A DNA stretch of 37,559 nt, from positions 1 to 37,559 of IMG/VR virus record IMGVR_UViG_3300005253_003520. The stretch is one strand, 5' to 3'. Numbering within the stretch: position 1 is the first letter of the stretch; each line of letters starts with the position of its first letter. Shown here piece by piece: positions 861-22,291 of the stretch. Position numbers and translations under genes: made by a program. Source of the stretch: a virus. Under the pieces are notes generated by a model. The model saw nothing but the letters and a program-made list of their open reading frames with translations, had not been told where the DNA came from and made no database searches.

Positions 861-2170
861 AGCCCTTCTCGTCGCTTGAGCAAATCCTACTGGCAACCGC
901 AGAGGCCATCCGCCCGCCCGAGCGCCTGACCGTATCGGAAGCGGCCGAGAAGTATCGAAAGCTCAATAATCCCGGCCAGTATATCGGCCCGTGGCGCAAT
1001 TCCATGGCGCCATACCTGACCGAAATCATGGACGAGACTGGATCGCTCGATTTCACGGGTGTCGTCTTCGCCGGGCCGGCTCGCTGCGGCAAGTCCGACA
1101 TCTTCTTCAACAAGCTCGGCCATTCGGCGATCTGCGATCCCGGTGACGCGATGCTTGTCCACATGACGCAATCCACGTCCCGCGATTGGTCGCAGGGGGA
1201 TTTGCGGAAGTTCTTCCGTCACACAACGGCGGTCGGGTCGCGGGTCCTTCCCGGCAAGCAAAACATGAACGTCCATGACATTCGGTTTTTGACGATGCGG
1301 CTCCTCGTCAAGTGGCCGACGATCACCGAACTGTCAGGCAAGACGCTCCGCGATCTCTGGTTCATGGACTACGATCGGATGCCCCAGGACATCGAAGGGG
1401 AAGGACCCCCGTTCGATCTTGGGCGGAAGCGCACACAAACGGTCGGTCGCTACGGAATGACGGTGGCCGAGTCCTCGCCCGGCTTTGAAATTCTGAATAC
1501 GCGCTGGTCGCCTGAGACGCCCCATGAGGCGCCGCCGACGCAAGGTATTCTCGCGCTCTATAACCGTGGCGATCGTCGGCGTTGGTATATTCGCTGTGTC
1601 GACTGCGGCAACGCCTTTGAGCCCCATTTCGATCACCTGAATTATCCCGACAGCGCCGACCACGTTGAGGCTGCCGAGATGACGACCCTCGATTGTCCGA
1701 TGTGCGGCTTCTCCCATACCCATGAGCCCGCGCCAGGGCAGCCGGGGAAGCACGGTCTCAATCTCGGCGGCAAGTGGATCAAGGAAGGGCAATTATGGAT
1801 GCCTGACGGCACGATCGAGGGCGTCGCCAGGAAGTCCGACATTGCATCGTTTTGGCTGCCCGGCGTTTCCGCCGCGTTCGTCGATTGGAAAACCCTCGTC
1901 CTAAAATGGCTCAAGGCCAACGAGGAGTACGATAAGTCCGACCTCGACGCCGTTGAGGCTGGCGCGGAAGGTCGACCCGCCGTCGTTACGCCAGACCCGC
2001 GCGCCGATCGCTTCGCAGATGAGGGCGTAGCGGTTCACGCCGACGCGGTAGCTCTTGAAGGTGTGGCCGTCGATCTCGACAGGTTTCCGGCTCGTCGGAG
2101 TCATTATGGGATCATCCTTCCATGGCGGCGGCGCGGGCAGTCGTTGCGGTTGCAAACATGCGTCTTTTGA
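857..2170 (+). CDS. Terminase large subunit, GpA family, broken C-terminus
   Basis: The first ~360 residues are a GpA-type packaging ATPase. They include a Walker A variant GPARCGKS at about residues 73-80, a downstream LWFMDYDRMP segment in the Walker B region, and a CxxC...CxxC cluster (CVDC near 247, CPMC near 281) typical of this family. Full-length members are about 600-700 aa with a C-terminal nuclease. After ANEEYDKS (about nt 1938) family similarity stops. The last ~75 residues are simply the antisense reading of a leftward gene, so the nuclease domain is absent. The product as drawn cannot be a working terminase. The cause is a chimeric assembly join or a real rearrangement. The start is fixed by the 4-bp overlap with the small subunit. 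Confidence 0.8.
   Translation: MKPFSSLEQILLATAEAIRPPERLTVSEAAEKYRKLNNPGQYIGPWRNSMAPYLTEIMDETGSLDFTGVVFAGPARCGKSDIFFNKLGHSAICDPGDAMLVHMTQSTSRDWSQGDLRKFFRHTTAVGSRVLPGKQNMNVHDIRFLTMRLLVKWPTITELSGKTLRDLWFMDYDRMPQDIEGEGPPFDLGRKRTQTVGRYGMTVAESSPGFEILNTRWSPETPHEAPPTQGILALYNRGDRRRWYIRCVDCGNAFEPHFDHLNYPDSADHVEAAEMTTLDCPMCGFSHTHEPAPGQPGKHGLNLGGKWIKEGQLWMPDGTIEGVARKSDIASFWLPGVSAAFVDWKTLVLKWLKANEEYDKSDLDAVEAGAEGRPAVVTPDPRADRFADEGVAVHADAVALEGVAVDLDRFPARRSHYGIILPWRRRGQSLRLQTCVF
1938..2104 (-). pseudogene. Truncated leftward gene of unknown function
   Basis: A leftward reading frame starts with ATG at 2104, overlapping the stop of the upstream 327-aa gene by one base (TAATG). It reads MTPTSRKPVEIDGHTFKSYR and continues for about 55 residues (…NRYALICEAIGARVWRNDG…) before running into the large-terminase sequence near 1938. 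The visible part looks like the N-terminus of a small phage protein, but its 3' end is missing. I do not recognise the family. The exact breakpoint is uncertain by a few bases because both sides share a short tccgacc-like stretch. Confidence 0.5.
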
Positions 2171-3087
2171 TGCGTGCCGCAAGTGTCGCAGGCGTTGAGG
2201 ATGGCCCGAAAGGTCGCCGTCTTGAACTTGGGCTCGCGCATCCGCATCCGCTCAAGCCATTCCTCTGTCTCCTCGTCGGGGAGCTTGGGCGCACTCACCC
2301 GATTTGGCGCCTTAATCTCCTTCGCCATCGCGGCAAATGTTTCCCCCTTCTGACGAACCGTCGCGGCGATTTCGGAATCGGTAGGAAACGACGACCCTGG
2401 CGACAGGATCACGGGGAACTCGTTGGACTTGACGATCCCTCCCGAGTGCAATGGTATCCCCAGGTCGGCGAGGGTCTTCACCATCTTCGCAACGAGCGCC
2501 CTCCCGGTGATCGTCACTTCATGCGTCGATTTGAGCCGGATGCGGTCCATCACGACTACGGGCAGGCGGCGAACTTCCACCCGGCGACCCGCGCGCTTGG
2601 CCCGCTCGATCCCGAGGCGCATCCCTTCCGAGATGCCCAGGTCCTCATAGACAACCGTCGCATCGGCCTTCTCACCCCAGGCAAGACCCGCGTCGATCCC
2701 CGCCGACTGCTCGTCGGGATTGTCGTCGTCGAGCACGTCCGGTTGGGTGTAGAGGAGATGGCTGGCGTAAGGTGCCTCCTCGCGTTCAAGGCAATCGCGC
2801 ATCGCGGCGCGGGCGTAGCGGGTGTTGAGTTCGACGTTGCCCGCATAGGGGCTTTCGATGATGACGAGTCTCATGACCTTGCCGATTGGCAGGTTATAGT
2901 CACCGGCATCGTGCGTCACGACGTAATCTGACGGAATATTGCTGAATGTTTTATGGTCGATCTTCTCGCCGCAGCGCTGGCAATAGTGCTGTCGCCCGTC
3001 GCTAAAGACGTATGACCGGTGAGACTTCACACCTGGGCGATGGTAGAGCCCCATGCAGGGGTGCTTATTCTCGCCAACGTCATTCAT
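2104..3087 (-). CDS. DUF7768-like phage protein with C-terminal extension
   Basis: 327 aa. Residues about 70-175 (VIIESPYAGNVELNTRYARA… through …LGISEGMRLGIERAK) match the pattern of DUF7768. This phage-associated domain resembles nucleoside 2-deoxyribosyltransferase or DUF4406 folds (SPYxG near the start, an acidic centre, GISxGMxxGI near the end). A nucleotide-related role is inference. The N-terminal part has a CxxC pair (YCQRCGEK), and the tail has further Cys residues (CDTCGTHQKTHVCNRNDC), so small zinc sites are possible at both ends. AGGAG lies 9 bases before the start. It overlaps the preceding gene by 8 bp and the truncated gene downstream by 1 bp, forming one leftward operon. Confidence 0.65.
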   Translation of the reverse strand: MNDVGENKHPCMGLYHRPGVKSHRSYVFSDGRQHYCQRCGEKIDHKTFSNIPSDYVVTHDAGDYNLPIGKVMRLVIIESPYAGNVELNTRYARAAMRDCLEREEAPYASHLLYTQPDVLDDDNPDEQSAGIDAGLAWGEKADATVVYEDLGISEGMRLGIERAKRAGRRVEVRRLPVVVMDRIRLKSTHEVTITGRALVAKMVKTLADLGIPLHSGGIVKSNEFPVILSPGSSFPTDSEIAATVRQKGETFAAMAKEIKAPNRVSAPKLPDEETEEWLERMRMREPKFKTATFRAILNACDTCGTHQKTHVCNRNDCPRRRHGRMIP

Positions 3088-7377: not shown

Positions 7378-8052
7378 TTAACGCGCGTGCCAAAGATAGA
7401 GGCTTCCGTCTTTTTCGACGTGATTAAACTCGCCGCTTAGCCGCAGATCGCGCCCATAGGCTTCAAAGTCGAAATACCTGGCGAGTTCGTCGGGAACGTC
7501 GGACAACGTACCGCAGTCGGCAATGAAGCTTTCCGCATATGCGGTCCAACTTTCGTGCTCCCCGGCATAATCGTCTTGAAGCGCGCTTTCCGCTTCGGAC
7601 TCGTCGGTTATGTCCGCGATCTTTCCAACGTCTTCTAAGTATTCCAGCGCAACGGCTATCGGGATTCCAACAGTCTCGGCAGCGTTGACGATCATGACTC
7701 GCTTCGCGACCTCATCAAGGCCGGCATATTCGCCAAGATCGCCGAGTCCTTCGTGATCGTGGATCGCCCATTCTTCGGCCGACCTGAAAGCCGCGCCGTC
7801 CTTCGTCATGTAGTCGACGCACTCAGGGCATTCGTATTCCACGGGTCCGCCTCCATAGGGCAGCGTGACAGTCGCGGTTTTGTCGCAGTCCTCGCACTTG
7901 AACTTTTGCCTAAAGACATTCGGAAAGCGGGACGCGGCGAGCATTTCGTTGATCTCGCGATACATGGCCGATTGATCTTCCGAAGCATCGATCCATCGGC
8001 CATGAAGGACACCGTTATTGTAGCTGGCGAGACATGCGGCATAGATACGCAT
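7378..8052 (-). CDS. ardA: ArdA antirestriction protein with zinc-ribbon insert
   Basis: 224 aa. N-terminal IYAACLASYNNGVLHGRWID and the later blocks EEWAIHDHEG, LGEYAGLDEV, and YAESFIADCG…LPDELARYFDFEAYGRDL-like region are the ArdA signature. ArdA is a DNA-mimicking protein that inhibits type I restriction enzymes. Typical ArdA is about 165-185 aa. Here residues about 45-90 hold an insert with CEDC (53-56) and CPEC (75-78), a four-Cys zinc ribbon, placed between the first strand-helix unit and the WAIHD block. AAGGA lies about 12 bases upstream of the ATG. It would protect incoming phage A DNA. No operator copy is obvious in front of it. Confidence 0.85.
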   Translation of the reverse strand: MRIYAACLASYNNGVLHGRWIDASEDQSAMYREINEMLAASRFPNVFRQKFKCEDCDKTATVTLPYGGGPVEYECPECVDYMTKDGAAFRSAEEWAIHDHEGLGDLGEYAGLDEVAKRVMIVNAAETVGIPIAVALEYLEDVGKIADITDESEAESALQDDYAGEHESWTAYAESFIADCGTLSDVPDELARYFDFEAYGRDLRLSGEFNHVEKDGSLYLWHAR

Positions 8053-8089
8053 AAGGGCGTTTCCTTGTCATAGGTCGGAAAGGTTGACG

Positions 8090-8290
8090 TTAAGCCGTGG
8101 CACCTAGCACAAGTGCCTTATGGCGCGCGTTAAAAAGCCATTCGGGAACTGGAAAGCCTTCCCGTTTCCGTTGGTCGATTTGCCGTTGATATCCGTTGTA
8201 AAGGTCGACGAGCGGATTCGTCATTCTCTGCCCGGTATAAGTGACGTACCCGTAAGGCATAGTGTCGTCTAAGTTCATATCGGCGCGCAT
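8090..8290 (-). CDS. Small hypothetical protein
   Basis: 66 aa from MRADMNLDDTMPYGYVTYTG. AAGGAAACGGCA before the ATG matches the ribosome region of the ardA gene (AAGGAAACGCCC), and the upstream GTCAACC(C/T)TTCCGA block is also shared. The longer frame back to 8398 would run into the tRNA and is rejected. Contains GYQRQIDQRKREGFPVPEWL. Function unknown; last gene of replicon A before the tRNA. Confidence 0.55.
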   Translation of the reverse strand: MRADMNLDDTMPYGYVTYTGQRMTNPLVDLYNGYQRQIDQRKREGFPVPEWLFNARHKALVLGATA

Positions 8291-8351
8291 TGCCGTTTCC
8301 TTGTCATGGTTCGGAAGGGTTGACGGGGCGAATAGAGTCGTCCCGTCGCTA

Positions 8352-8380
8352 TTGACGCATGGCGCTAAATCGGAGAGATA
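8352..8380 (+). promoter_or_regulatory. Promoter of the tRNA-Thr gene
   Basis: TTGACG (8352-8357), 17-bp spacer, GAGATA (8375-8380). The transcript would start about 5-10 bases before the first tRNA base at 8391. Confidence 0.55.
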
Positions 8381-8390
8381 ACGCCGCGTG

Positions 8391-8467
<77 letters not shown>

Positions 8468-8821
8468 CAAATCCCTGCACAGCAAGGCTTCCGAGCCCCA
8501 AGCACTCCCGTTTCCCCCACGGTTCAAACCTGAACAGGTGCGGAACGTCCCCCAAAAGCTGGGGGAAAACTGGGGGAATCCGTTCGCGGACTGTTCTCCC
8601 GTCGATCCGCCGCCGGACCCCGGAAACGCGAAAGCCGCTCCGATTGGTCCTCGGAACGGCTCGCAGAATGAAAAGCGCTGTGGCGGTGCTTTCAACTCAA
8701 AATACTACAGCACCGCGCGCGCTCTGACAATTCCCAGCCCGGAAAAACCCGACCGAATGGCGCACGTAGTGCGTTGCGGCGAACGGCTCTTTGCGGTCGG
8801 TTACCACGTCGGAGGTGCCCT
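8468..8821. promoter_or_regulatory. Left end of element B: integrase arm-type sites
   Basis: Non-coding. TCCCCCA at 8513-8519 and 8548-8554 and TGGGGGA at 8560-8566 and 8571-8577 match the two TGGGGGA copies beside attR (25153-25170), so they are likely integrase arm-binding sites. A 22-codon frame at 8757-8825 ends in an ATGA overlap with the next gene but has no ribosome site. The rest shows nothing clear. Confidence 0.55.
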
Positions 8822-9415
8822 ATGACCGGCACCGTCGAAGTTATGGCGGCACGCGCCAAGCTCTATCGTAGGGCTATGCCGTCGCGGGCGTCGATCGATT
8901 ACGTACGCGACAACGGCCTCGATAGTTGGACAATTGCCGCGCACGCGGGTTGCTTCACCGTCCTGAAGATCAACGTCCTGCCGGGGAACCGGTGGGACTT
9001 CGTCGAGGACGACAGCGAAGTGGCTGTCCCGGTGGCGATCGTCGAAGCCTTCGGCCGCGACGGCGAGACCGTCCTGGACCTCGTAGCGTGGCCGCTGGAC
9101 CATCCCTACCGGGTGCTGACGATGTTCGGCCGGGCCGACATGCTCGGCCTCGTCAACGTCTATTCGGCCGCGTCCTACACCTTCGGAACGCCGCTCCAGA
9201 TGCACCGGACGCCGCTCGGATGGTGGCGTGCAGGATGCCGTGGCGCGGTCGTTCTCGATCCCGTCTCGGCCGCCCGACATCTCCTCGACGCGCCGGGCCG
9301 GATCGCTGGGCAAGACCGGGAGCACTCGCAGGAACTCGCCGATCTCGTCGGCGGGCTCTTCGATCGCTCGCGCTTTGTCGCTTCTGCAGCTTCTCATCTC
9401 AAGGTGGCGGCATGA
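8822..9415 (+). CDS. Hypothetical protein preceding VirE helicase
   Basis: 197 aa with GGAGG 6 bases before the ATG at 8822. Distinct blocks: WTIAAHAGCFTVLKIN, VLDLVAWPLDHPYRVLTMFG, then FGTPLQMHRTPLGWWRAGCRG and VVLDPVSAARHLLDAPG. It overlaps the helicase gene by 4 bp (ATGA). Its place before a VirE-type helicase, where satellites and prophages often have a primase or Toprim-like partner, suggests a replication role. I see no DxD or Toprim Glu/Asp motif that proves it, so function stays open. Confidence 0.6.
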   Translation: MTGTVEVMAARAKLYRRAMPSRASIDYVRDNGLDSWTIAAHAGCFTVLKINVLPGNRWDFVEDDSEVAVPVAIVEAFGRDGETVLDLVAWPLDHPYRVLTMFGRADMLGLVNVYSAASYTFGTPLQMHRTPLGWWRAGCRGAVVLDPVSAARHLLDAPGRIAGQDREHSQELADLVGGLFDRSRFVASAASHLKVAA

Positions 9416-10662
9416 GCGCCCTGGCCGAAGACTATCGTCCGATCGACAGCTTCCCGCGCGATCGCGAGGACGCCAGCGACCCGGATTGGACGAGGCGGCT
9501 GATTTGCACAGCGAACGGATTCCCGAAGCCGCTTCTGGCAAACGTCCTGACGGCGCTGCGATCGGCGCCCGAATGGGCGGGTGTCCTTGCTCACGACGAG
9601 TTCGGTATGTCGACCATGATGCGCGTCGTGGCACCGTGGGACCGCGCGCACGGTTTCAAACCTCGTCCCTGGACTTCGCGAGACGATCTCTTGACGACCG
9701 AATGGATGCAGCATCACGGCATCCCGATATCCGTGGAGATCGTTCAACAGGCTATTGAGGCTGCGGCGGCCGAGAATGCCTTCCATTCCGTCCGCGATTA
9801 TCTGGACGGGCTCCGGTGGGATCGAACATCCCGCGTCGAAACATGGCTGACGCGTTATCTCGGAGTAGAGACGACAGACTACACCCGCGCAGTGGGAAAG
9901 AAGTTTCTCATCTCGGCTGTCGCTAGGGCTTTCCGGCCTGGGATCAAAGTCGACACGATGCTGATCTTCGAGGGAGGGCAGGGCGCCGGCAAGTCACGCG
10001 CCGTGGCGACCCTCGGCGGAGCATTCTATTCCGACGAAATCGGCGATCTCGGCTCGAAGGACGCCGCCATGCTGGCGGGCGCCGCTTGGATAATCGAAAT
10101 GTCCGAACTCGACGCGATGTCGAAATCGGAGGCAACGCGGACGAAAGCGTTTCTCTCGCGAACGGCGGACATGTACCGGCCACCCTACGGGAAGCGGGTT
10201 ATCAACGCTCCTCGTCATTGCGTCTTCGTCGGCACGACCAACGGCGACGGCTACCTGAAGGACGAAACCGGCGGTCGGCGCTTCTGGCCCGTGACGGTCG
10301 GCAAGATCGACATCGCCGCATTGGAGGCCGATCGCGATCAGCTTTGGGCTGAAGCCTTGTGCATCTATCGCGCCGGGCATTCCTGGTGGCTGGACAAGCA
10401 AGAGCTGATCGACGCCGCGCAAGCCGAACAGTCGGCTCGGTATGCCGGCGATCCCTGGGATGACGACGTTCGCCAGTTCATCGCCACCCGCACGGATGTT
10501 TCCGCCCGCGAGGTCATGGCCGAATGCCTCTTCATCGATATCGCGAAGAGATCTCGGCAGGACGAGATGCGGGTTTCGAAGATCCTCAAGACGCTGGGCT
10601 TCGAGCGATATCAGCGGCGAGAGAACGGAAAGCAGACGTGGAGGTATCGTCGCCGAGAATAG
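9412..10662 (+). CDS. VirE-family (virulence-associated E) helicase/ATPase
   Basis: 416 aa. Residues about 120-345 form the VirE P-loop domain: Walker A GGQGAGKS near 188-195, Walker B-like WIIEMSELD near 226-234, and sensor region VFVGTTNGDGYLKDETGGRRF near 271-292, all hallmarks of this SF3-like replicative ATPase of phages and satellites. The C-terminus (about 355-415) looks like a winged helix (SAREVMAECLFIDIAKRSRQ…RVSKILKTLGF) that could bind the adjacent iterons. It lies directly upstream of the iteron array at 10672 and should unwind element B's origin. Translationally coupled to the gene before it. Confidence 0.88.
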   Translation: MSALAEDYRPIDSFPRDREDASDPDWTRRLICTANGFPKPLLANVLTALRSAPEWAGVLAHDEFGMSTMMRVVAPWDRAHGFKPRPWTSRDDLLTTEWMQHHGIPISVEIVQQAIEAAAAENAFHSVRDYLDGLRWDRTSRVETWLTRYLGVETTDYTRAVGKKFLISAVARAFRPGIKVDTMLIFEGGQGAGKSRAVATLGGAFYSDEIGDLGSKDAAMLAGAAWIIEMSELDAMSKSEATRTKAFLSRTADMYRPPYGKRVINAPRHCVFVGTTNGDGYLKDETGGRRFWPVTVGKIDIAALEADRDQLWAEALCIYRAGHSWWLDKQELIDAAQAEQSARYAGDPWDDDVRQFIATRTDVSAREVMAECLFIDIAKRSRQDEMRVSKILKTLGFERYQRRENGKQTWRYRRRE

Positions 10663-10671
10663 CTTTCCGCC

Positions 10672-10903
10672 TGTCACCAACCACTATCGCCTGTCACCGA
10701 CCGGAGGTTGGTGACAACTCGACGTGTCACCGACCTAGGTTGGTGACACTTGCGTTTTGCAACTAATAAAACGGCAGCAATTTCAACGCTGTCACCATGT
10801 CACCAACCTAACCAACCTATCTGAGAATTAGTAGAGAATGGCTCAAAAGGGGGTGTTTACGCTCTGGGGAAAGTTTGGTGACGAGGTTGGTGACATGGTG
10901 ACA
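10672..10903. repeat. Iteron array, likely replication origin of element B
   Basis: At least seven copies of TGTCACC(A/G)ACC or its reverse complement: 10672-10682, 10692-10702, 10706-10716 (inverted), 10725-10735, 10738-10748 (inverted), 10798-10808, 10885-10895 (inverted). Further partial copies lie at 10790, 10873 and 10896. Two pairs form near-perfect palindromes. An A/T-richer stretch (10750-10790) lies in the middle, as expected for an unwinding element. It follows the helicase gene by 9 bp. Confidence 0.8.
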
Positions 10904-10976
10904 GCCGAAGGCGTCGCTTCACTTGCCACAACTTGCTTAATCCCCATGCGTCACGGTCGGCAGCATAATGCCGGCT

Positions 10977-12182
10977 ATGTTCGGATTTCTGCGCAAGAGC
11001 GTTCCTGTCGAGAAGAAGGAGGGCATCAGCTCGCCTTCCGATTGGCTTCTCAGCCTGTTCGGCGCGATGCCAGCCGCCGCCGGCGTATCCGTCACGCCTC
11101 AGACCGCCATGCGCTGCACTCCGGTTCGGGCCGCAGTCCAGACCATCGCGGAGTCGATCGGCCAGCTTCCCTTCCATGTTTATCGTCGCGGGCCGGATCG
11201 GTCGAAGGAGCGAGACAGCGAGCATCCGGTCGCCAAGCTTCTGAACGGCGAGGCGAACGAATGGACCGCCTCTTCCGACTTTCAGGAACAACTAACCCGT
11301 GACGCGCTCCTATGGGGCAATGGCTACGGCTTCATCAATCGGATTGAAGGCCGCCCGCAGGAGCTTCTTCGGCTTCAGCCGGACACCGTGTCGGTCGACG
11401 CCGACGAGACCACCGGCGAGCCGCGATACAAGATCACGTCCGGTTTCGACGTCGGTCGCCAGATCGCTCGGCGCGACATTCTCCATATCAAGGCGCCGTC
11501 GCTGAACGGCATCGTCGGAGACAGTCCGGTCGTCCAGGCGAAGGAGGCCATCGCTTCGATTCTGGCGATGGAGGAACACTGCGCTCGCCTCTTCGGCAAT
11601 GGCGCTCGCCCATCCGGCGTGATCGAGATGCCGAACAATCTCTCGGAAGAGGGTCTGAAGCGAATGCGCACCGGATGGGAAGCCGTCCACGGCGGCGCCC
11701 ATAAATCCGGCAAGACGGCGCTCCTCTGGGATGGCGCCAAATTCGTCCCGCTCACCTTCTCTTCGGTCGACGCGCAGTTCTTGGAGCTTCGCCGCTTCGC
11801 TATCGACGAGATCGCCCGCGTCTTTCGCGTGCCGCCGCACATGCTTTTCGAGATGGGCCGCGCGACCTGGGGCAATGCCGAGGAGATGGGCGCCACCTTC
11901 GTCACCTACACGCTGCAACGTTGGTTGCGGGCATGGCAGGGCGAGGTTCGCCTGAAGCTCTTCGCCGAGGACGAGCGCGACACATTCTTCGCCGAGTTCC
12001 TGGTCGACGATCTCCTCAGGGCGGACATCAGCGCTCGCGCTGTCGCCTATTCCTCGCTGATCTCCTCTCGCGTTCTGAATCCGAACGAGGTCCGGGCGAT
12101 GGAAAACCGGCCGCCATACGAAGGCGGCGAGGCCTTCGCCAATCCGAATATCACCACGACTGTTGCGGAGCCCGCGCAATGA
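10977..12182 (+). CDS. Phage portal protein, HK97 family
   Basis: 401 aa from MFGFLRKSVPVEKK, a typical portal N-terminus; an ATG 9 bases earlier is also possible, and neither has a strong ribosome site. Family blocks visible: TPVRAAVQTIAESIGQLPFHVYRR, LLWGNGYGFINR, the LRLQPDTVSV region, ARRDILHIKAPSLNGIVGDS, and near the end ARVFRVPPHMLFEM and RAMENRPPYEGGE. It forms the dodecameric ring at the capsid vertex through which DNA enters. First gene of the head operon of element B, downstream of the origin. It overlaps the protease by 4 bp (ATGA). Confidence 0.92.
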   Translation: MFGFLRKSVPVEKKEGISSPSDWLLSLFGAMPAAAGVSVTPQTAMRCTPVRAAVQTIAESIGQLPFHVYRRGPDRSKERDSEHPVAKLLNGEANEWTASSDFQEQLTRDALLWGNGYGFINRIEGRPQELLRLQPDTVSVDADETTGEPRYKITSGFDVGRQIARRDILHIKAPSLNGIVGDSPVVQAKEAIASILAMEEHCARLFGNGARPSGVIEMPNNLSEEGLKRMRTGWEAVHGGAHKSGKTALLWDGAKFVPLTFSSVDAQFLELRRFAIDEIARVFRVPPHMLFEMGRATWGNAEEMGATFVTYTLQRWLRAWQGEVRLKLFAEDERDTFFAEFLVDDLLRADISARAVAYSSLISSRVLNPNEVRAMENRPPYEGGEAFANPNITTTVAEPAQ

Positions 12183-12712
12183 AGGAAGACAAGCTTCAGC
12201 ACCCGGCTCTGATCGAGGTCAAGGCCAGTCTGTCGGCGGCCGATGACGGCGCCGTCGAAGGGCTTGCCTGGCCGTTCGGCACACCCGACCGCGTCGGAGA
12301 CATGATCGAGAAAGGCGCCTTCTCAGGATCGGCCGTCCCGATCCCCATGCTCTTCGGTCACAACCCGAACGATCCTGTCGGCGTCTGGGAAGCCGTCGAG
12401 GAAACGAGCGAAGGCCTCCGGGTGAAGGGCCGGCTTCTGGTCGCTGAGGTCGGCCGTGCCCGCGAAGTTCAGGCCATGGTGAAGAGCGGCGCCGTGCGCG
12501 GTCTGTCGATCGGCTTCATCACGAAAAAGGCCAGCGCCCGGCGCGGCGGCGGCCGGACCATCACGTCTCTTGAACTTGCCGAAATTTCACTCGTCACCAT
12601 CCCCATGCACCCGAAGGCGGGTCTCAGGGGAACAAAGGCCGGAGCGGACGCCATCGCGCTCGCCGAGGCCATCAACCGGGCCGCCAGCGCCCTCCGTTCC
12701 TCAAGGGGTTAG
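12179..12712 (+). CDS. Prohead (capsid maturation) protease, HK97 family
   Basis: 177 aa. The serine protease pattern of the HK97 prohead family is present: MLFGHNPNDPVG (catalytic His), VKSGAVRGLSIGF (catalytic Ser) and LELAEISLVTIPMHPKA (conserved Glu region). It would cut the delta-like N-terminal part of the capsid protein during assembly. The start is set by the ATGA overlap with the portal gene. It ends 4 bp before the capsid ATG. Confidence 0.92.
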   Translation: MKEDKLQHPALIEVKASLSAADDGAVEGLAWPFGTPDRVGDMIEKGAFSGSAVPIPMLFGHNPNDPVGVWEAVEETSEGLRVKGRLLVAEVGRAREVQAMVKSGAVRGLSIGFITKKASARRGGGRTITSLELAEISLVTIPMHPKAGLRGTKAGADAIALAEAINRAASALRSSRG

Positions 12713-12716
12713 AACC

Positions 12717-13889
12717 ATGGAACAACTGAAGCAGTCCGCGCTGATGCCCGGCGCGATCGAACTTAAGGGCGATGAAGACGGTGACGATCCGACCGCGATC
12801 GTCACGAAGGCTCTCGACGAGCTGAAGGGCTCGGTAGACGAGCGCATAAAGGCGATCGAAGAGAAATCCGGCGACGCCAGCAAGATCACCGACCGCCTGG
12901 ACAAGCTCGAATTCCGCCTCAATCGTCCCGGCACCGGCGGCGACAGGAAGGACGGGCCGAACGTCGAACAGAAGGCTTTCGTCGGCTTCATCCGACGCGG
13001 CGCCGATGGCATCCCGGACGAAGACCGCAAGGCGCTTCGCGTCGCCGATTCCCAGGCCGGCGGCTATCTCGCACCGGAAGCCTTTGAGACTGAAATCCTG
13101 AAGGAACTCGTTGAAATCTCGCCGATTCGATCGGCGGCGACGGTTCGCCAGACCTCTTCGGCATCCGTGGTCCAGCCGAAGCGCACCGGGCGCATTACGG
13201 CGAAGTGGGTCGGCGAGACGGAAGCCCGCCCCGGCACCGAACCCGCCTATGGCCAGATCGAGACGCCGGTCCATGAAATGGCTTGCTGGATCGATGTCAG
13301 CAATCAGCTTCTCGAAGACGCGGCCGTCAATATCGAGGCGGAACTGACCGGCGAGTTTGCCGAGGAGTTCGGGCGTCTTGAGGGCGAAGCCTTCGTTCTC
13401 GGAGACGGCGTCAAGAAGCCGGTTGGCCTGATGGTCGACGCATCGGTTCCCGTCGTGCCGAATGGCAACGCCACAGCCATTCAGGGGGATGCTCTCATCT
13501 CGCTGATGTACGATCTGCCGGCGATGTACCGCAATCGCGGTACTTGGCTGATGACCGGCACCACGATCGCCGCCATCCGCAAGCTGAAGGACGGGCAGGG
13601 CAACTATCTCTGGCAGCCCGCCTATCAGGTCGGCCAGCCGGAAACGCTCCTCGGTCGCCCGGTGGTCGAAGCCGTCGACATGGACGACATCGCGGCGGAC
13701 ACCTTCCCGATCGCCTACGGCGACATTGCCGCGACGTATCGGATCTATGACCGCGTCGGCCTTTCGGTCCTTCGCGATCCCTTCACCCAGGCAACGAACG
13801 GCATCACCCGATTCCACTCTCGCCGTCGCGTCGGCGCGGCCGTGGTCCGAGCGGAAGCCGTCCGCAAGCTGAAGATGGCCGTGAGCTAA
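12717..13889 (+). CDS. Major capsid protein, HK97 fold
   Basis: 390 aa. Residues about 1-70 are charged and helical (IVTKALDELKGSVDERIKAI…KITDRLDKLEFRL), the scaffold-like delta region. From about 115 the HK97 core begins: SQAGGYLAPEAFETEILKEL, IRSAATVRQTSS, AKWVGETEARP, then RNRGTWLMTGTTIAAIRKLK and a C-terminal RRRVGAAVVRAEAVRKLKM. The protease next door implies cleavage near 105-115. AAGGGG lies about 8 bases upstream of ATG 12717. It forms element B's own capsid shell. Confidence 0.94.
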   Translation: MEQLKQSALMPGAIELKGDEDGDDPTAIVTKALDELKGSVDERIKAIEEKSGDASKITDRLDKLEFRLNRPGTGGDRKDGPNVEQKAFVGFIRRGADGIPDEDRKALRVADSQAGGYLAPEAFETEILKELVEISPIRSAATVRQTSSASVVQPKRTGRITAKWVGETEARPGTEPAYGQIETPVHEMACWIDVSNQLLEDAAVNIEAELTGEFAEEFGRLEGEAFVLGDGVKKPVGLMVDASVPVVPNGNATAIQGDALISLMYDLPAMYRNRGTWLMTGTTIAAIRKLKDGQGNYLWQPAYQVGQPETLLGRPVVEAVDMDDIAADTFPIAYGDIAATYRIYDRVGLSVLRDPFTQATNGITRFHSRRRVGAAVVRAEAVRKLKMAVS

Positions 13890-13901
13890 GGAGAAACGAC
13901 A

Positions 13902-14297
13902 ATGCGCGATTTTTCGAGGGACATTAAGGCTGAACAGGCCTTGGCACCCGCTATCCGCGTGGGTAGCGCCACCGGCGGCGGCGTTGACCGCCTTGGCTTC
14001 GAGGCTCTGACATTCGCCATTCATGCCGGCGACTGGACCGATGGGACGCATACCGTGTCCGCCGATCATTCCGATGACGGCACGACATGGGAATCCATCC
14101 CCGCCGATCAGATCATCGGGGCCTTTCCCGTGGTGTCAGCGGTCGGCGCCGAGAACACGATCACCATGGTCGGCTATATCGGCGATCGTCGGTATGTCCG
14201 CGCCAAGAGCACGGTAACGGGCTCGCCAGTCACCGGCGCCGCGATCGGAATCAGCGTCCTTCTTGGCCGTGCCCATAGCCGCCCGGTTGCGGCCTAA
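13902..14297 (+). CDS. Probable small virion protein (head decoration-like)
   Basis: 131 aa with GGAGAAACGACA before its ATG, 12 bp after the capsid gene. Strand-rich with an Ig-like or jelly-roll look: LTFAIHAGDWTDGTHTVSAD, DDGTTWESIPAD, ENTITMVGYIGDRRYVRAKS. Location between capsid and connector genes and the all-beta character suggest a capsid decoration protein. No family signature is certain. Confidence 0.6.
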   Translation: MRDFSRDIKAEQALAPAIRVGSATGGGVDRLGFEALTFAIHAGDWTDGTHTVSADHSDDGTTWESIPADQIIGAFPVVSAVGAENTITMVGYIGDRRYVRAKSTVTGSPVTGAAIGISVLLGRAHSRPVAA

Positions 14298-14300
14298 GCC

Positions 14301-14648
14301 ATGCCAGCGCGCGCGCCTCGCATCTGTGGTTGCGGACATCGGATCGCATCAGGGCAGCAATGTCCATGCGAGCGAAGCCGGACTGCCGAACGCAAGGCGC
14401 GCGCCGACGCGAACCGTCCGACCGCACGCCAGCGCGGCTATGACAGCAAGTGGGATCGCGAGCGTGTCGCCTTCCTGAAACTTCACCCTGTCTGCGCTCA
14501 CAAGGGATGCACACAGGCGGCAACCGTCGTCGACCACAAGGTGCCGCACCGTGGCGACCGCAAGCTGTTCTGGTCGCGGTCAAACTGGCAACCGCTATGC
14601 ACCGCGCATCACTCGGGCGCCAAGCAGAGCGAGGAGAAGCGACGATGA
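14301..14648 (+). CDS. HNH endonuclease
   Basis: 115 aa. Basic N-terminus with Cys-rich CGCGHRIASGQQCPCE, then the HNH core: VCAHKGCTQAATVVDHKVPH (the DH of the first motif), NWQPLCTAHHSGAKQ (N and HH). Small HNH proteins of this kind occur beside terminases in HK97-type phages and in cf-PICIs and act with terminase in genome cutting (known for the family). It starts 3 bp after the preceding stop. Confidence 0.88.
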   Translation: MPARAPRICGCGHRIASGQQCPCERSRTAERKARADANRPTARQRGYDSKWDRERVAFLKLHPVCAHKGCTQAATVVDHKVPHRGDRKLFWSRSNWQPLCTAHHSGAKQSEEKRR

Positions 14649-14655
14649 CTAGCTG

Positions 14656-14814
14656 TCAGGCGAGAGCTGAAGCGATCCGTTTCAGCTTTGTGATGGCGTC
14701 TTCAAGGTCGCGTTTGGCTTTGGAAAGGTTCTCGCTCTTGATCGAGCGTTCGCAGTCGTCGAGTTCATTTCGGAGAACCCGGCGGATGGCTTCCGAGGCT
14801 TCTTCCTTCTCCAT
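14656..14814 (-). CDS. Small helical protein, antisense within head operon
   Basis: 52 aa: MEKEEASEAIRRVLRNELDD…, ending ITKLKRIASALA. Strongly helical, likely coiled coil, acidic N-half and basic C-half. GGGAG lies about 7 bases before the ATG. It is leftward inside an otherwise rightward operon, in the gap between the HNH and connector genes, which makes it an accessory insertion (moron-like). Could be a small regulator or antitoxin; unknown. Confidence 0.5.
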   Translation of the reverse strand: MEKEEASEAIRRVLRNELDDCERSIKSENLSKAKRDLEDAITKLKRIASALA

Positions 14815-14947
14815 CGTCGACTCCCAACGTCAGCATGATCACTCAAAGGCGTATCGCAACCCGGGGTGGTCAGCAACTTTGAATAGAGTGCTGGGACCGG
14901 CGCCCAATCAATCGCGCAATATCGAGCCGAATTGAGGTTTCAGCCAA

Positions 14948-15244
14948 ATGATCGTCGACCTCGCCGACCTCAAAGCGCAACTCCGCGTCGATCATGACGA
15001 TGACAATGTGCTGATCGAACAGAAGATCGCGGCTGCGCAGGCGCATGTCGAAAACGCGATCGGTTTTCCGATCGAGGAGACCTACGCCGCGCCGTTGGTT
15101 GTCCCGGAGCCGCTGAAAGAGGCCGTCCGGCTCTATGCCGCGCACCTCTATGAAAATCGGGAGGCCTCGATCGTCGGCGTTACGATTATCCCCGTCCCCG
15201 GCTTTCAGGACATCATCAATTCCTATCGCGACTGGACGTTCTGA
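14948..15244 (+). CDS. Head-tail connector, gp6-like
   Basis: 98 aa. MIVDLADLKAQLRVDHDDDN, then a helical segment (IEQKIAAAQAHVENAIG) and LKEAVRLYAAHLYENREA are the usual gp6-like (HK97 gp6) connector layout. The ring docks under the portal. GAGG lies about 10 bases upstream. It overlaps the next gene by one base (TGATG). Its presence shows element B builds a head ready to accept a tail. Confidence 0.85.
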   Translation: MIVDLADLKAQLRVDHDDDNVLIEQKIAAAQAHVENAIGFPIEETYAAPLVVPEPLKEAVRLYAAHLYENREASIVGVTIIPVPGFQDIINSYRDWTF

Positions 15245-15564
15245 TGCGTGCCGGGAAACTCGACAGGGTGATCGTTATCGAGGGCGATGCCGAGGAGATC
15301 GGCCGCAATGCCTTCAACGAACCGATCTATGGGCCGCCGTTTGAACTTATCACCCGAGCCTCGGTCGAACAGCAATCAGGCCGTGAGTTTCTGACAAACC
15401 AATCCGTTAGTGCGGAGCGACAAGTCGTCTTCCGCACCCGCTACGTCGAGGGGATCACCGTCCTACATCGCGTGATCTATGACGGCGTAACGCATGACAT
15501 CGTCGATGTGCGCGAGATCGGTAGAAGCAAGGGCCTGGAACTCCATACGAAGGCCTCTGTCTGA
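15244..15564 (+). CDS. Head closure / head-tail adaptor protein
   Basis: 106 aa. MRAGKLDRVIVIEG, GPPFELITRASVEQQSGREF, RQVVFRTRYVEGI and VTHDIVDVREIGR are the beta-barrel pattern of phage head-tail adaptors of the SPP1 gp16 / lambda gpFII type (stopper). It closes the filled head and gives the tail-docking surface. Overlaps its neighbours by single bases on both sides (TGATG), a tightly coupled set. Confidence 0.85.
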   Translation: MRAGKLDRVIVIEGDAEEIGRNAFNEPIYGPPFELITRASVEQQSGREFLTNQSVSAERQVVFRTRYVEGITVLHRVIYDGVTHDIVDVREIGRSKGLELHTKASV

Positions 15565-15944
15565 TGCGTGGAACGAAGCCCCATCTCGTCGTGAGCAATG
15601 ACGCCATGACCGAAAAGCAGCCGGCGCCGTCCTGGATGTCGAAGGACGCCAAGGCGGAATGGAGGCGCATCATGCCGCTTCTGATCGAGCGCAAGATATT
15701 GACGGACGCCGACATGGGCAGCGTCGAGAACTATTGCGTCACGATCGGCCGAACCCGGCAGATTGAACGCCAGATTCAATTCGCGGGCGATGCGATCGAT
15801 CCCTCGCTTTTCAGAATGCAAGACAAGGCGATGCAGACCGCTCGCCAGCTTGCCGCAGAACTCGGGCTGACGCCGGTTTCCCGGTCCAGGCCAGCCATCA
15901 GAGAAGAGAACGATGACGACGATATCGCCGGCCTGGATATCTGA
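15564..15944 (+). CDS. terS: Terminase small subunit, P27 family
   Basis: 126 aa. MRGTKPHLVVSNDAMTEKQP is the typical P27 N-terminus, followed by PSWMSKDAKAEWRRIMPLLI, LTDADMGSVENYCVTIGRTRQ and AELGLTPVSRSR, all family blocks. It binds the packaging site and hands DNA to the large subunit, so it should decide that element B DNA, not helper DNA, enters the element's capsids. The end overlaps terL by 32 bp. Unusually it stands after the head genes rather than before the portal. Confidence 0.92.
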   Translation: MRGTKPHLVVSNDAMTEKQPAPSWMSKDAKAEWRRIMPLLIERKILTDADMGSVENYCVTIGRTRQIERQIQFAGDAIDPSLFRMQDKAMQTARQLAAELGLTPVSRSRPAIREENDDDDIAGLDI

Positions 15945-17511
15945 CGGATCGGAGATCCCCGACCCGCTCGGCTACGGCCAGCGCGCCGTCGACTTCCTTC
16001 GTATCCTGAAGCACCCGAAAAGCCGCTCGCCGGGCAGGGCATTCGAGCTGCCCGAATGGCAAGAGAGGATCGTCCGGCGCATTTATGGGCCATGCCATCC
16101 GGACGGTCGCCGGATCGTTCGCAGCGTCGTCGCGCTCCTCCCGAGAGGAAACCGCAAGACCTCGCTCGGCGCCACTCTCGCGCTTCTCCATACGATCGGG
16201 CCGGAACGCCTGAACGGCGGGCAGATCATCTGCGCCGCGGCTGATCGAAAGCAGGCGCGCATCGCCTATGAGGAGTCGGTCGGCATCGTCCGGGAAGACA
16301 AGCGCATCGCGAAGGCCATGCGGTTCCTGGACTACAAGAACCGTCTCGCGCATCCGAAGAGCGGCGCCATCCTCGAAGCTATCTCGGCCGATGCCGGCAC
16401 TCAGCACGGGCGAACGCCGACCTTCGCCCTGGTCGACGAGTTGCACGCCTGGAAAAAGCGCGAGCTATGGGACGTGATCCGCACTGGCCTGGTGAAGGTG
16501 CAGGGCTCGCTGATGGTCGTCATCACCACCGCCGGGCGCGGCCAGGAGAACATCGCTCACGATATCGTCGATTATGCTCGCAAGGTTGAACGTGGCGAGA
16601 TCGACGACCCGGCGACCCTGCCCATCCTCTTCGAGGCTTCGAAGGATGCCGACTGGCGCGACGAACAAGTCTGGCACCAGGTCAATCCGGGGCTCGCGCT
16701 CGGCTTCCCGGATATCGAGGGTCTTCGCCAGCTCGCACGCGAGGCTGAGAATCGCCCCGGCGACCGTGAGGCCTTCCGGCAACTTCATCTGAACGTCTGG
16801 CTGGATCACTCGGCCGACCCGTTCGTCGATATGGACGTATACGATCAGGGTGACGATGCGATCGACCTGGAGGCGTTGTGCGGCGAGCCGTGCTGGCTGG
16901 GCGTCGATCTCTCGTCAACGACCGATCTGACGGCCGTCGTGGCCGCGTGGAAGCAAGGCGAAGAGTATATCGTCTGGCCGTGGTTCTTCTGTCCCGGCGA
17001 TAATCTGAGGCGGCGATCCGAGATCGACGGCGTTCCCTATCCGCAATGGGCCGACGAAGGGTTTATCGAACCGACGCACGGCAACGTCGTCGATTATCGC
17101 CGCGTCGAGGCGGTGATCCGCGAACTTTGCGACCGCTTCGATGTCCAGGAAATTGCCTTCGATCCGGCGCTCGCGCGCAACATGCTGAACAACCTCCTCG
17201 ACGATGGGTATCCAGCGGTCGAGTTTCGGCAGGGATGGGTGACGATGGCGCCGGCGGTGAAGGAGCTGGAGCGGGCGATCGTCGGCGGAAACTTCCGACA
17301 CGGCGCGCATCCGGTCCTGCGCTGGAATTTCCAGAACATCGCCGTCGAGACCGACAAGGCGGGCAACCGCTTCTTTCACAAGGGCAAGAGCACCGATCGC
17401 ATAGACGGCGCCGTGGCGGCCGTCATGGCCGTCGCGCGAGCCTCAGCCGGCGATAGCGGCCGGTCGATTTACGAAACCGACAAGTGGTCCGAAGACCTTG
17501 CCTATTTCTGA
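15913..17511 (+). CDS. terL: Terminase large subunit (Terminase_1 family)
   Basis: 532 aa. ATPase: Walker A-like LLPRGNRKTS near 75-84 and Walker B ALVDELHAW near 172-180, followed by a coupling segment VVITTAGRG. C-terminal RNase H-like nuclease: WLGVDLSSTTDLTA near 329 (first Asp), EIAFDPALARNML (second acidic site) and TDRIDGAVAAVMA near 495-507 (third Asp). Length is normal for the family and all key residues are present. It is a different lineage from the GpA terminase of replicon A. Last gene of the packaging block. Confidence 0.94.
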   Translation: MTTISPAWISDGSEIPDPLGYGQRAVDFLRILKHPKSRSPGRAFELPEWQERIVRRIYGPCHPDGRRIVRSVVALLPRGNRKTSLGATLALLHTIGPERLNGGQIICAAADRKQARIAYEESVGIVREDKRIAKAMRFLDYKNRLAHPKSGAILEAISADAGTQHGRTPTFALVDELHAWKKRELWDVIRTGLVKVQGSLMVVITTAGRGQENIAHDIVDYARKVERGEIDDPATLPILFEASKDADWRDEQVWHQVNPGLALGFPDIEGLRQLAREAENRPGDREAFRQLHLNVWLDHSADPFVDMDVYDQGDDAIDLEALCGEPCWLGVDLSSTTDLTAVVAAWKQGEEYIVWPWFFCPGDNLRRRSEIDGVPYPQWADEGFIEPTHGNVVDYRRVEAVIRELCDRFDVQEIAFDPALARNMLNNLLDDGYPAVEFRQGWVTMAPAVKELERAIVGGNFRHGAHPVLRWNFQNIAVETDKAGNRFFHKGKSTDRIDGAVAAVMAVARASAGDSGRSIYETDKWSEDLAYF

Positions 17512-17520
17512 GGAGTGAAC

Positions 17521-17859
17521 ATGAACACCATCTCGATCATCGGGTTACATCGCGTCCCGCACCCCAAACCGAACAAGGGTGGCAACACCATCGTCGCGCA
17601 CTTCGATTGCGAGGCGAACGGCTTCAGGCTTCTGGGCTGTGCTTTGGTGAAGACGCTGAAGGGCGGATTGTCGGCCTGGACGCCACGGGTGGACGGAATG
17701 ACGGATGCCAGGCGTGCCGTCGTGTTCGCCGATGACAGCCTACAGCACGAAATGAAGATGCTGGCACGGGATGCCTATCGGGCGCTCGGCGGAACGGATC
17801 TGGAGTGCATTGGGGCCTCGGCACCGATCGGGTCTTATCGTGGCGCGGGGGACAAATGA
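17521..17859 (+). CDS. Hypothetical protein after terminase
   Basis: 112 aa from MNTISIIGLHRVPHPKPNKG, with AGGAG 5 bases before the ATG at 17521. A beta-rich centre (GNTIVAHFDCEANGFRLLGC, LVKTLKGGLSAWTP) and a helical C-terminus (LQHEMKMLARDAYRALGG). I have a general impression of similar proteins in rhizobial prophages but cannot name a family. It lies where a tail operon would begin in a complete phage. Confidence 0.6.
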   Translation: MNTISIIGLHRVPHPKPNKGGNTIVAHFDCEANGFRLLGCALVKTLKGGLSAWTPRVDGMTDARRAVVFADDSLQHEMKMLARDAYRALGGTDLECIGASAPIGSYRGAGDK

Positions 17860-17950
17860 AAGGCCCAGTGACCGTTTCAGGTGTCCTCGTGCGGTTTGCA
17901 TTGATCCTGGCTATCTGCATTAATCAGTGAGCGATACTTTAGGGGGTAGA

Positions 17951-18313
17951 ATGTCACTCGACGGCCAAGAGAGAATGATTATCGAAACTCGAGTGGCTAG
18001 CGAAAGCCCGAGCACCGGGGTCGCCTACCTTCTCTGGTTTTTTCTCTGGTTTATATCGGCCCATCGGTTCTATCTCGGCCGGCCGGGAACTGCGATTCTG
18101 CAAATCATCAGCTACTTCATCCTGGTTGGATTCATATGGCTGATTGTCGACGCTTTTCTGATTCCTGGGATGATCCAAAAGAAGCGCGACGAGATTCGTC
18201 AAAAGCTGACGATAGAAGCGCTCGCAGCGTATCGAGGGCCGCAAGAGATTCGTCGCCAAGTCGGTCGAGATGATAGACGCTCGGAACCGGAGTTCGACCG
18301 CATCCCAGATTGA
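17951..18313 (+). CDS. TM2-domain membrane protein
   Basis: 120 aa from ATG 17951, with GGGGG about 5 bases upstream. Residues about 23-75 match the TM2 domain: first helix AYLLWFFLWFISAHRFYLGR (with the conserved HRFYLG turn), a GTAILQI link, and second helix FILVGFIWLIVDAFLIPGMI. The C-terminal 45 residues are charged and cytoplasmic. TM2 proteins are widespread and of unclear biochemical function. Here it may act at the envelope, for example in exclusion. It is the last rightward gene before the leftward cargo block. Confidence 0.8.
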   Translation: MSLDGQERMIIETRVASESPSTGVAYLLWFFLWFISAHRFYLGRPGTAILQIISYFILVGFIWLIVDAFLIPGMIQKKRDEIRQKLTIEALAAYRGPQEIRRQVGRDDRRSEPEFDRIPD

Positions 18314-18333
18314 ACCAATCTGCTTGTCACCGC

Positions 18334-19362
18334 CTACTTTGGCTTGCGTGGAAGTCCCTTTGCTTCTTTCGCCAGAGCTGCGATGTGCACGTCGGCTTCA
18401 CGTTGTCGCTCAAATTTACGGTGCTGAGCGAATTTCTTATATTGCAGCTCCGCGTGGCGTTTGGCATCTGATGCCTTGATACGCCCCCCGCTTTTAAGGA
18501 CCGTACGGCCAAGCGATTTTAGCTGTTGATCAAGCAGATTCCGAGCATCTTGCATGACCACCAACCTGCCCACGTCGAGCTGATCTTCGAAGATGTCCAG
18601 CAAGATCGTGGTTAGCCGGTTCAGCTCTTTTATTTCTGCCTCCGCTAGATAATTCTTCGATGTCGCTACATCATTTTTCCGGATGTTGTCATGCGGCCAG
18701 GATTGTAGCCCCATGTTCGCAGCATCGGAATTCGCTCGGGAGACAACGATTTCGGCAGGGGTATGAGACGTTACCGCGTAAACGAGCTTAGCTTGGGTTT
18801 GCTGGTAGAATTCCCGAGCCGCCTCAGTCGTCCCATCATAATCCTGGCACATGGCGCAAATCGCGCGCAACTCCCGATAGACGTTCGCTTCATCGGATCG
18901 GATATCGCGAATGATCTCGCGTAGCTCTGCCACGCGGTCGGCATTCTCAGGCTGCTTTAGGCGAGGCGCGTCTACGACAAACCCCTTTTTGGCGAATTGA
19001 ACCAAGATGCCGGTAGCCCATCGGCGGAAGACCGTCGCTTGCGCGGAGGACACCCGATAGCCGACCGATATCACCATATCGAGATTGTAGAGGGTCGCGG
19101 GCCGCCCTGTGGTTGTTTGCACTTTTTGCAAAGAAGTCGATTCGTCGAGTTCGCCCTCTTCGAAAACGTTGCCGATGTGCCTGGACACGGTGGACACGTC
19201 ACGACCGAACAATTGCCCGATCTGCGCTTGCGTCATCCAGAGGGTGTCCCCTTCATAACGAATGTCCAACCGCAGGCCCTTGTCGGTGCCATAAACTAGG
19301 AACCGGCCTCCCGTTTCCTCATCTTCAACGAGATGAACGGGGCCGCCTTCGTTGTCGCTCAT
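18334..19362 (-). CDS. RhuM family protein
   Basis: 342 aa. The N-terminal half holds the RhuM signature: GKDVSTVSRHIGNVFEEGEL-like segment (here FGRDVSTVSRHIGN), preceded by LWMTQAQIGQLFG, then YNLDMVISVGYRVSSAQATVFRRWAT. C-terminal part is helical (EFYQQTQAKLVYAVTSHTPA, ELNRLTTILLDIFEDQLDVG). RhuM proteins were named in a Salmonella pathogenicity island and are common in mobile elements; biochemical function is not established, though a DNA- or toxin-related role is suspected. First of three leftward cargo genes in element B; it starts 11 bp after the preceding stop. Confidence 0.85.
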   Translation of the reverse strand: MSDNEGGPVHLVEDEETGGRFLVYGTDKGLRLDIRYEGDTLWMTQAQIGQLFGRDVSTVSRHIGNVFEEGELDESTSLQKVQTTTGRPATLYNLDMVISVGYRVSSAQATVFRRWATGILVQFAKKGFVVDAPRLKQPENADRVAELREIIRDIRSDEANVYRELRAICAMCQDYDGTTEAAREFYQQTQAKLVYAVTSHTPAEIVVSRANSDAANMGLQSWPHDNIRKNDVATSKNYLAEAEIKELNRLTTILLDIFEDQLDVGRLVVMQDARNLLDQQLKSLGRTVLKSGGRIKASDAKRHAELQYKKFAQHRKFERQREADVHIAALAKEAKGLPRKPK

Positions 19363-19373
19363 TTAGCCGTGCC

Positions 19374-19898
19374 TCATAGGTGCGCAGACAAGCCGGAGTT
19401 GGGCCCGTTGCTTACCCCGAATGCTTCGTTGAACGCGACGAAATCGGAATTGCGAAGCGCGTTCAGAAGAGGCTCTACGGCAACCTGGGTGCCAATCTTC
19501 GCGGCCGATTCTGGACGTTCCTCTCGGACGGCCTTTGCTCGGTAAATCGTAAGGTGAGTTTTGCCTTCATCCATTGCTCGTCGACATAAGCCTCGCAGGT
19601 AGAAGCGGTTGAATTCGCCTTCGGCGAGCATCGCGGCGCTTTGCGGAGCGTTCACCGTCCGTGAACGAGTAATCCCGTTGCGAGTATAGTTCTCAGAATC
19701 GTTAAAAAGCTGGCGTCTCAACAATTCCGCCGCCAACCAATCGTCATCATGCTGGTCCGCAGCCGTTCGAAGGAGATCCTGCCATTGAGCTTTGCCGTCT
19801 TGGGTTAAGCGTGGACTATCATAATGCCCACCGTATTCGATTTCGTCGGTCATCCGACCCCGGGTGACGTCGTCGAGGTTGTGATAGTCCAATCCCAT
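19374..19898 (-). CDS. Hypothetical cargo protein
   Basis: 174 aa from MGLDYHNLDDVTRGRMTDEI, with GGAGAGCGAATC before the ATG; the longer frame to 20006 lacks a ribosome site. Recognisable blocks: SPRLTQDGKAQWQDLLRTAA, DDDWLAAELLRRQLF, AAMLAEGEFNRFYLRGLCRR, LTIYRAKAVREERPESAAKI and a Gly/Asn/Pro-rich end. Similar proteins appear in proteobacterial mobile elements but I know no assigned role. Close pairing with the RhuM-family gene (11 bp) suggests joint function. Confidence 0.6.
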   Translation of the reverse strand: MGLDYHNLDDVTRGRMTDEIEYGGHYDSPRLTQDGKAQWQDLLRTAADQHDDDWLAAELLRRQLFNDSENYTRNGITRSRTVNAPQSAAMLAEGEFNRFYLRGLCRRAMDEGKTHLTIYRAKAVREERPESAAKIGTQVAVEPLLNALRNSDFVAFNEAFGVSNGPNSGLSAHL

Positions 19899-20077
19899 GA
19901 TTCGCTCTCCGCACTCTGAATAGGTGGACCGCACCAATGGTACGTGTCGCGGCTGCTTTATCAATCGCTTCTTCGTCACGCCGTGAAGACCGGGCGCCGC
20001 GAACACCCCCGTTGGTCTAGCACACGGCGTGACCGGCGGGAGGGGAAACGGCGTATGTTCGGGGACGCAAGCACCGG
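19899..20077. other. Cargo-block intergenic region
   Basis: 180 bp between two leftward genes; it should hold the promoter of the 174-aa and RhuM genes. A short GC-rich inverted segment occurs near 19985-20050. No clear -35/-10 pair was identified. Confidence 0.4.
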
Positions 20078-21133: not shown

Positions 21134-21196
21134 GAAATCCCCCCTATGTCGTCGGGGGAAGAAAATCACAGATGCGCGCTGTACGCGAGAGGGGCA

Positions 21197-21418: not shown

Positions 21419-21423
21419 GGGAC

Positions 21424-21482: not shown

Positions 21483-21500
21483 ATTGATGGAGATGCAACT

Positions 21501-21761: not shown

Positions 21762-21806
21762 CCGCTTCGGCGCGCTGTCGCCGGTCTAGAATAGGAAGCA
21801 TAAGCG

Positions 21807-22265: not shown

Positions 22266-22291
22266 CTTCCAGGCCATATCAACGAGAGACA

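Follow-up and report, generated by a model that had tools for sequence, protein, structure and literature searches.

A predicted zinc-ribbon insert at a recurrent and apparently exchangeable site within domain 1 of a prophage ArdA anti-restriction protein

The DNA analyzed here, referred to as the window, is an IMG/VR virus record (IMGVR_UViG_3300005253_003520) of 37,559 bases that harbors an ardA gene (Table 1). The minus strand of the gene interval is a single open frame of 224 codons, and the plus-strand frame is broken by stops. The encoded protein matches the ArdA family PF07275 with an E-value of 1.8e-35 and 123.3 bits against a Pfam cut-off of 27, and within PHROGs it matches phrog_2059, an anti-restriction protein (E 7e-31). 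An identical protein in our collection (L001) has a net charge of −27, the strong negative charge that is typical of ArdA; many ArdA proteins carry −22 to −29 according to the accessible text of PMC3906837, in which a usual length of 166–177 residues is also given. At 224 residues the window protein lies outside this typical range because of the insert described below, and length was taken as a descriptive rather than a defining feature. The AlphaFold2 model, built from 75 sequences, has a mean pLDDT of 96.0 and a pTM of 0.86, with no residue below 70, and in it the ArdA fold is predicted to be kept (2w82_B: Z 10.0, 159 residues aligned, rmsd 3.2; Foldseek against the ArdA structure 2w82: E 2.7e-6). 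From sequence and model, the best explanation is that the gene encodes a prophage anti-restriction protein that belongs to the ArdA family of DNA mimics and is predicted to inhibit type I restriction enzymes. A known defence component was rejected as the identity of the protein, PADLOC having assigned it no family.

Table 1. Location of ardA, its insert and the features upstream of it within the window
Feature	Position	Strand	Basis
ardA gene, 224-aa ArdA with zinc-ribbon-type insert (predicted)	7378..8052	−	Translation, PF07275, phrog_2059
Insert, residues 47–90, flanked by PNV and SAEEWAIHD, within ArdA domain 1	7783..7914	−	Alignment, AlphaFold2 model, ribbon matches
First CxxC, CEDC, residues 53–56	7885..7896	−	Translation and sequence
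Second CxxC, CPEC, residues 75–78	7819..7830	−	Translation and sequence
32-nt leader ahead of ardA, with AAGGA Shine-Dalgarno-like stretch	8058..8089	−	Repeat search
Small ORF upstream of ardA, about 66 aa, sharing the leader	8090..8290	−	Putative start at 8290

A 91% copy of the leader is located at 8294–8325, ahead of the small upstream gene. Just these two copies occur in the window, and none was found in 100 shuffles. The small upstream ORF is likely part of the same early operon as ardA; a longer version of this frame (8090–8398) gave no Pfam match. Further along the window, a 52-nt direct repeat (96%) is found at two tRNA-Thr(GGT) genes, 8391–8465 and 25201–25278, delimiting the region 8416–25280. 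Between the repeats lie genes for a tyrosine integrase, a VapE-type helicase, a portal, a major head protein, head-tail adaptor and closure proteins, TerS and TerL, and no tail gene was found there among the ORFs scanned. This region looks like a capsid-encoding satellite, presumably cf-PICI-like, integrated beside the prophage that bears ardA. The latter has its own GpA-type terminase (857–2170), and also encodes a DUF7768 / nucleoside 2-deoxyribosyltransferase-like protein (2104–3087, minus strand) that has several cysteines toward the C-terminus. A tRNA-Gly called by ARAGORN at 13168–13256 on the minus strand is on the opposite strand within the major head gene and is probably a false call.

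The original prediction was that the ArdA at this locus carries a four-cysteine module inserted after the first ArdA unit. Such a module is present: alignment with relatives reveals 44 residues, containing both CxxC motifs, that are missing from ArdA proteins with nothing at this site (hereafter the slot). Its placement has to be corrected, as the alignment and the AlphaFold2 model both position it inside domain 1. In ORF18 of Tn916 the EEYAIHD segment, the counterpart of AEEWAIHD in the window protein, starts at about residue 43, and domain 1 comprises residues 1–61 in the available portion of PMC3906837; the insert therefore falls within domain 1, in the interval that separates the helix of this domain from its last strand.

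The two CxxC motifs of the insert are spaced 18 residues apart. Block means of pLDDT across the insert range from 87 to 97, and around cysteines 53, 56, 75 and 78 the model has strands at 46–53, 59–63, 81–84 and 89–91. Among the closest structural matches of residues 42–94 were MCM N-domains, with an rmsd of 2.0–2.5 over about 45 residues and a Z of about 5, a value that is middling by the warning of the VIA tool itself, and the zinc ribbon of aRF1 (4af1; Z 5.8, rmsd 2.0). The insert was also close to FmdB-family phage ribbons (39–40 columns, rmsd 1.5–1.8) and matched the RbpA zinc ribbon with a Z of 4.4 and an rmsd of 2.9; anti-TRAP and other families missing from the VIA lists are not thereby excluded. 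Because the Z values are middling over about 45 residues, we refer to a predicted zinc-ribbon fold and do not regard it as proof, zinc binding itself being presumed. At that level the zinc-ribbon nature originally proposed is borne out, and the predicted structure sets the cysteines outside ordinary ArdA loops, a result that concerns their placement and not metal geometry. Pfam zinc-ribbon models matched below their cut-offs (zinc_ribbon_6, 17.3 versus 27; Zn_ribbon_8, 14.3 versus 34.4), and these sub-threshold matches span residues 26–83 and 51–78. The CxxCxGxG motif of DnaJ and anti-TRAP is not found in the insert, which has CEDCDKTA and CPECVDYM instead. The zinc domain of ClpX has similar cysteine spacing and was rejected as a relative, the insert alone giving a non-significant E of 0.27 against 2ds7.

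ArdA proteins were gathered from genome, virus and phage collections, in which 347 loci had a tblastn match; 309 of these were readable and 38 were not, resulting in 190 distinct proteins. Other ArdA proteins with cysteine insertions, one of the things to be looked for according to the original prediction, were found in number. The slot holds a CxxCxG knuckle resembling those of DnaJ and anti-TRAP in 41 proteins, a ribbon in 13, a short Cys-free loop in 14 and an unrelated 51-residue segment in one (L104), and is empty in 121. Ribbons and knuckles were separated by a simple text rule, and L336 and L341 were recoded by eye from short loop to none. In all slot-bearing proteins the insert is at the same place, framed by PN[V/I]...S[A/S]EE. 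PN is found in 69/69 of them, and PN[V/I] precedes the slot in 13/13 ribbons, 41/41 knuckles, 14/14 short loops and none of the 121 slot-less proteins. That the same socket recurs in 69 of the 190 distinct proteins rules out an oddity unique to this contig; the fraction is not a prevalence, because every query of the eight viral scans was slot-bearing (seven used at least one in-slot peptide and the eighth the frame peptide SAEEWAI).

Chance cysteines can be ruled out as well. In an earlier set of 135 proteins, 51 of the 52 slots of at least 30 residues contained two CxxC motifs, compared with a composition-based expectation of 2.9e-5 per slot. All knuckle-type slots scored (40/40) have CxxCxG, with the fuller CxxCxGxG motif occurring twice in 21 of the 40. 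Among 75 aligned ArdA members, 20 match the anti-TRAP Pfam model and 18 match DnaJ_CXXCXGXG, at E-values of up to 0.1. The model of one knuckle-type protein (L002; pLDDT 96.3) has the ArdA fold with a Z of 10.0 along with weak DnaJ zinc-finger matches. Spacing within the slot varies: in three related knuckle-type proteins (L119, L127 and L132) the two CxxC motifs are separated by 62 residues, compared with 16 in L121, whose identity to L127 outside the slot is 83%. The slot segment of another ArdA (L108; 4989–5711, plus strand) contains ten cysteines and could possibly hold two or more metal sites.

Slot content was followed on a tree of 115 representatives of the 190 proteins, from which the slot itself was excluded. 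On this tree there are 27 changes among the five slot states and 17 for cysteines versus no cysteines, counts to be read with the tree's unsettled bootstraps. Forcing the 12 ribbons into one clade cost 422 log-likelihood units (p-AU 2.7e-23), and forcing the 61 socket-bearers into one clade cost 395 (p-AU 8.1e-7). The AU tests thus reject a single origin both for the ribbon and for the socket, with the qualification that swapping of whole N-terminal parts would look alike, as about 165 columns do not suffice to tell a swapped slot from a swapped N-terminal domain.

Near siblings with different slots were found in several cases. Outside the slot, identity is 81% between L002 (knuckle) and L069 (short loop), 80% between L075 (ribbon) and L104 (the unrelated 51 residues), 87% between L098 and L108, and 94% between L051 and L137, the slots differing in each pair. 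L075 and L104 have residues 1–47 in common and also SAEEWAMHDSEDLPS past the slot, with unrelated slots between; their DNA alignment likewise breaks off at the slot and resumes beyond it. In ArdA pairs that are 50–80% identical, mean slot identity is 0.33–0.44, in each bin lower than that of the four other segments, and in pairs above 80% the contrast shrinks, most of all in the medians. Since slot content changes 27 times on the slot-free tree and near siblings differ, we regard ArdA as having an exchangeable socket, and these sequence patterns suggest that related phages exchange this part of the protein. Part of the pattern could have another cause, namely tolerance in a free loop or replacement of the N-terminal domain as a whole.

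The same data bear on whether the slot matters at all. A zinc module might merely pin a loop on an ordinary ArdA, within a slot that is free of function and tolerant of insertion, and fast slot change could then be that of a neutral ornament. The 121 of 190 proteins that do without an insert would fit this, as would near siblings that differ in or lack the module, such as L002 and L069, and the slot being the most divergent segment in pairs of 50–80% identity. However, an unconstrained loop would be expected to lose its cysteines, and the paired CxxC motifs are kept in nearly every long slot; moreover, different kinds of module recur behind the invariant PN[V/I]...S[A/S] frame. We consider a mere ornament unlikely, while granting it a substantial minority of the probability.

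ArdA proteins with four cysteines in the slot (Cys4) are not confined to the window. Over 10,672 bases around ardA, the window is identical to part of a contig from an Aurantimonas coralicida MAG. Contigs assigned to Aurantimonas, Bradyrhizobium and a Myxococcales MAG contain Cys4 ArdA, as do a Hyphomicrobiales genome (L236, a ribbon) and many uncultured virus contigs. In surveys less biased by the query, ArdA exceeded the cut-off in 36 of 397 Hyphomicrobiales genomes and in 10 of 385 genomes class-wide. Among the 24 stronger loci of these surveys, counted with the window's own genome excluded and with weaker, partial matches left unclassified, 20 have no slot, one is a ribbon (L236) and three were unread. 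When the window protein was used as query, Cys4 was present at 6 of the 26 viral loci; among the 40 genomic loci there were 3 cases, and these include the window protein itself. Excluding that protein, the comparison of 6/26 with 2/39 gives a Fisher p of 0.051, so enrichment in viruses is not established and the excess over genomes is suggestive only.

A possible working of the socket can be built on what is known of ArdA architecture. In the accessible text of PMC3906837, dimerization and contact with the methylase core are assigned to domain 3, and domains 1 and 2 project beyond that core and appear to carry the HsdR-binding surface, the latter role being a model from one ArdA. With the insert in domain 1 and domains 1 and 2 projecting beyond the core, the slot would decorate the arm thought to meet HsdR. 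In type I restriction enzymes, the ArdA body would bind, as a DNA mimic, both the methylase core and HsdR. A structural zinc ribbon would replace the short turn between the domain 1 helix and the AEEWAIHD strand, and across phage ArdA proteins this turn serves as a socket whose filling is often exchanged or lost, leaving nothing, a short Cys-free loop, a knuckle, a ribbon or another segment. The zinc module would then be a protein-recognition knob on the arm, its extra contacts being with a target that varies, in the simplest case the host HsdR, and its exchange would re-tune which type I systems are blocked. The reading of the slot as a protein-recognition tip, by which the choice of type I enzymes is tuned, falls a little short of an even chance; the sequence, the position, the predicted fold, the recurrence and the exchange of the insert come from the data, and zinc binding, HsdR contact and the change of range are what we infer.

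The charge of the slot bears on what such a tip might touch. Cys4 slots are negative in 46 of 54 cases, zero in three and positive in five, with a mean of −2.7 and with less acidity per residue than the body; the window slot has a charge of −2. Because these slots are mostly acidic, protein contact fits better than DNA binding. In the original prediction the insert may add recognition of DNA, nucleoprotein or defence proteins and could widen the range of systems blocked; of these targets, direct contact with DNA looks less likely than contact with protein. Zinc ribbons are frequently nucleic-acid binders, and a module that binds nucleic acid could hold ArdA on incoming DNA. ArdC-N has been proposed to recruit ArdA to injected DNA in fusion proteins, in the available part of PMC5512222. 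Given the acidic slots, such tethering is the least probable of the readings weighed here, and nucleic-acid binding as the main role is disfavoured. For a protein-recognition tip, anti-TRAP offers a precedent for such modules in inhibitors, as this inhibitor with CxxCxGxG motifs requires zinc to function (PMC2896485, in the portion available).

The target of the tip could also lie elsewhere. The module might recognize a silencer (H-NS-like) or another DNA-handling defence complex, making ArdA a two-armed protein. A review describes ArdA as acting on H-NS and cites, by title, inhibition of H-NS repression by the ArdA N-domain (accessible text of PMC12707154), and the insert does sit in the N-terminal domain. 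However, the cited work concerns ArdA generally and not insert-bearing forms, and the target is hypothetical, so we rate a second target of this kind as improbable. The high turnover of slot content would likewise be expected if the slot varied to escape host sensors of DNA-mimic inhibitors, in the way that Ocr is sensed by PARIS (PMC12839542, as far as the available text goes). Sensing of ArdA by such systems is hypothetical, however, and immune evasion seems very improbable as the cause.

The insert of the window protein is one option among several that turn up at this recurrent and exchangeable position, which goes beyond what had originally been claimed for it. A wider form of the protein-recognition reading can be put forward tentatively, as a minority possibility in our estimation. 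ArdA would be modular, with a constant DNA-mimic body and a cassette socket in domain 1, the tip setting which restriction complexes or defence proteins are recognized and phages trading tips by recombination; as part of the same claim, the tips would include ribbons, knuckles, doubled or nested zinc modules and other small folds.

ArdA, a textbook DNA mimic, is considered to act broadly through shape and charge. If a recurrent, exchangeable and mostly zinc-type tip is real, part of the reach of ArdA would be set by specific recognition, and the ArdA type of a phage would help in telling which defences it is prepared to meet. The exchangeable socket is what makes a bench test worthwhile, and the pairs L075/L104 and L002/L069, natural siblings with similar bodies and different tips, make tip recognition directly testable.

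The ArdA family is already known, and the zinc-type insert at an exchangeable socket would be a new variation as far as the literature searched; among the matches listed there, subscription papers being mostly outside, no description of a zinc insert in ArdA was found. Tn916 ArdA (ORF18, PDB 2w82) has the fold, the acidic character and the EEW/YAIHD core in common with the window protein. However, its 165-residue PDB chain has no insert, and a short turn stands in place of the 44 extra residues, four cysteines among them, of the window protein. The ribbons of MCM helicase, aRF1, RbpA and the FmdB family resemble window residues 42–94 in predicted fold, yet they belong to different host proteins and have no significant sequence relationship to the insert. 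Anti-TRAP and the DnaJ central domain have Pfam models that are matched by knuckle-type ArdA, while the window insert is without CxxCxGxG. The ArdA of the T7-like Pseudomonas phage vB_PsyP_3MF5 (QLI47555.1, L203; 1828–2442, plus strand) shares the socket, the ArdA body and the four cysteines with the window protein, its slot being classed as a knuckle rather than a ribbon, and it is annotated merely as an ArdA-like antirestriction protein. Its gene lies upstream of the one for RNA polymerase, within the early region, which is the general position of ocr in T7.
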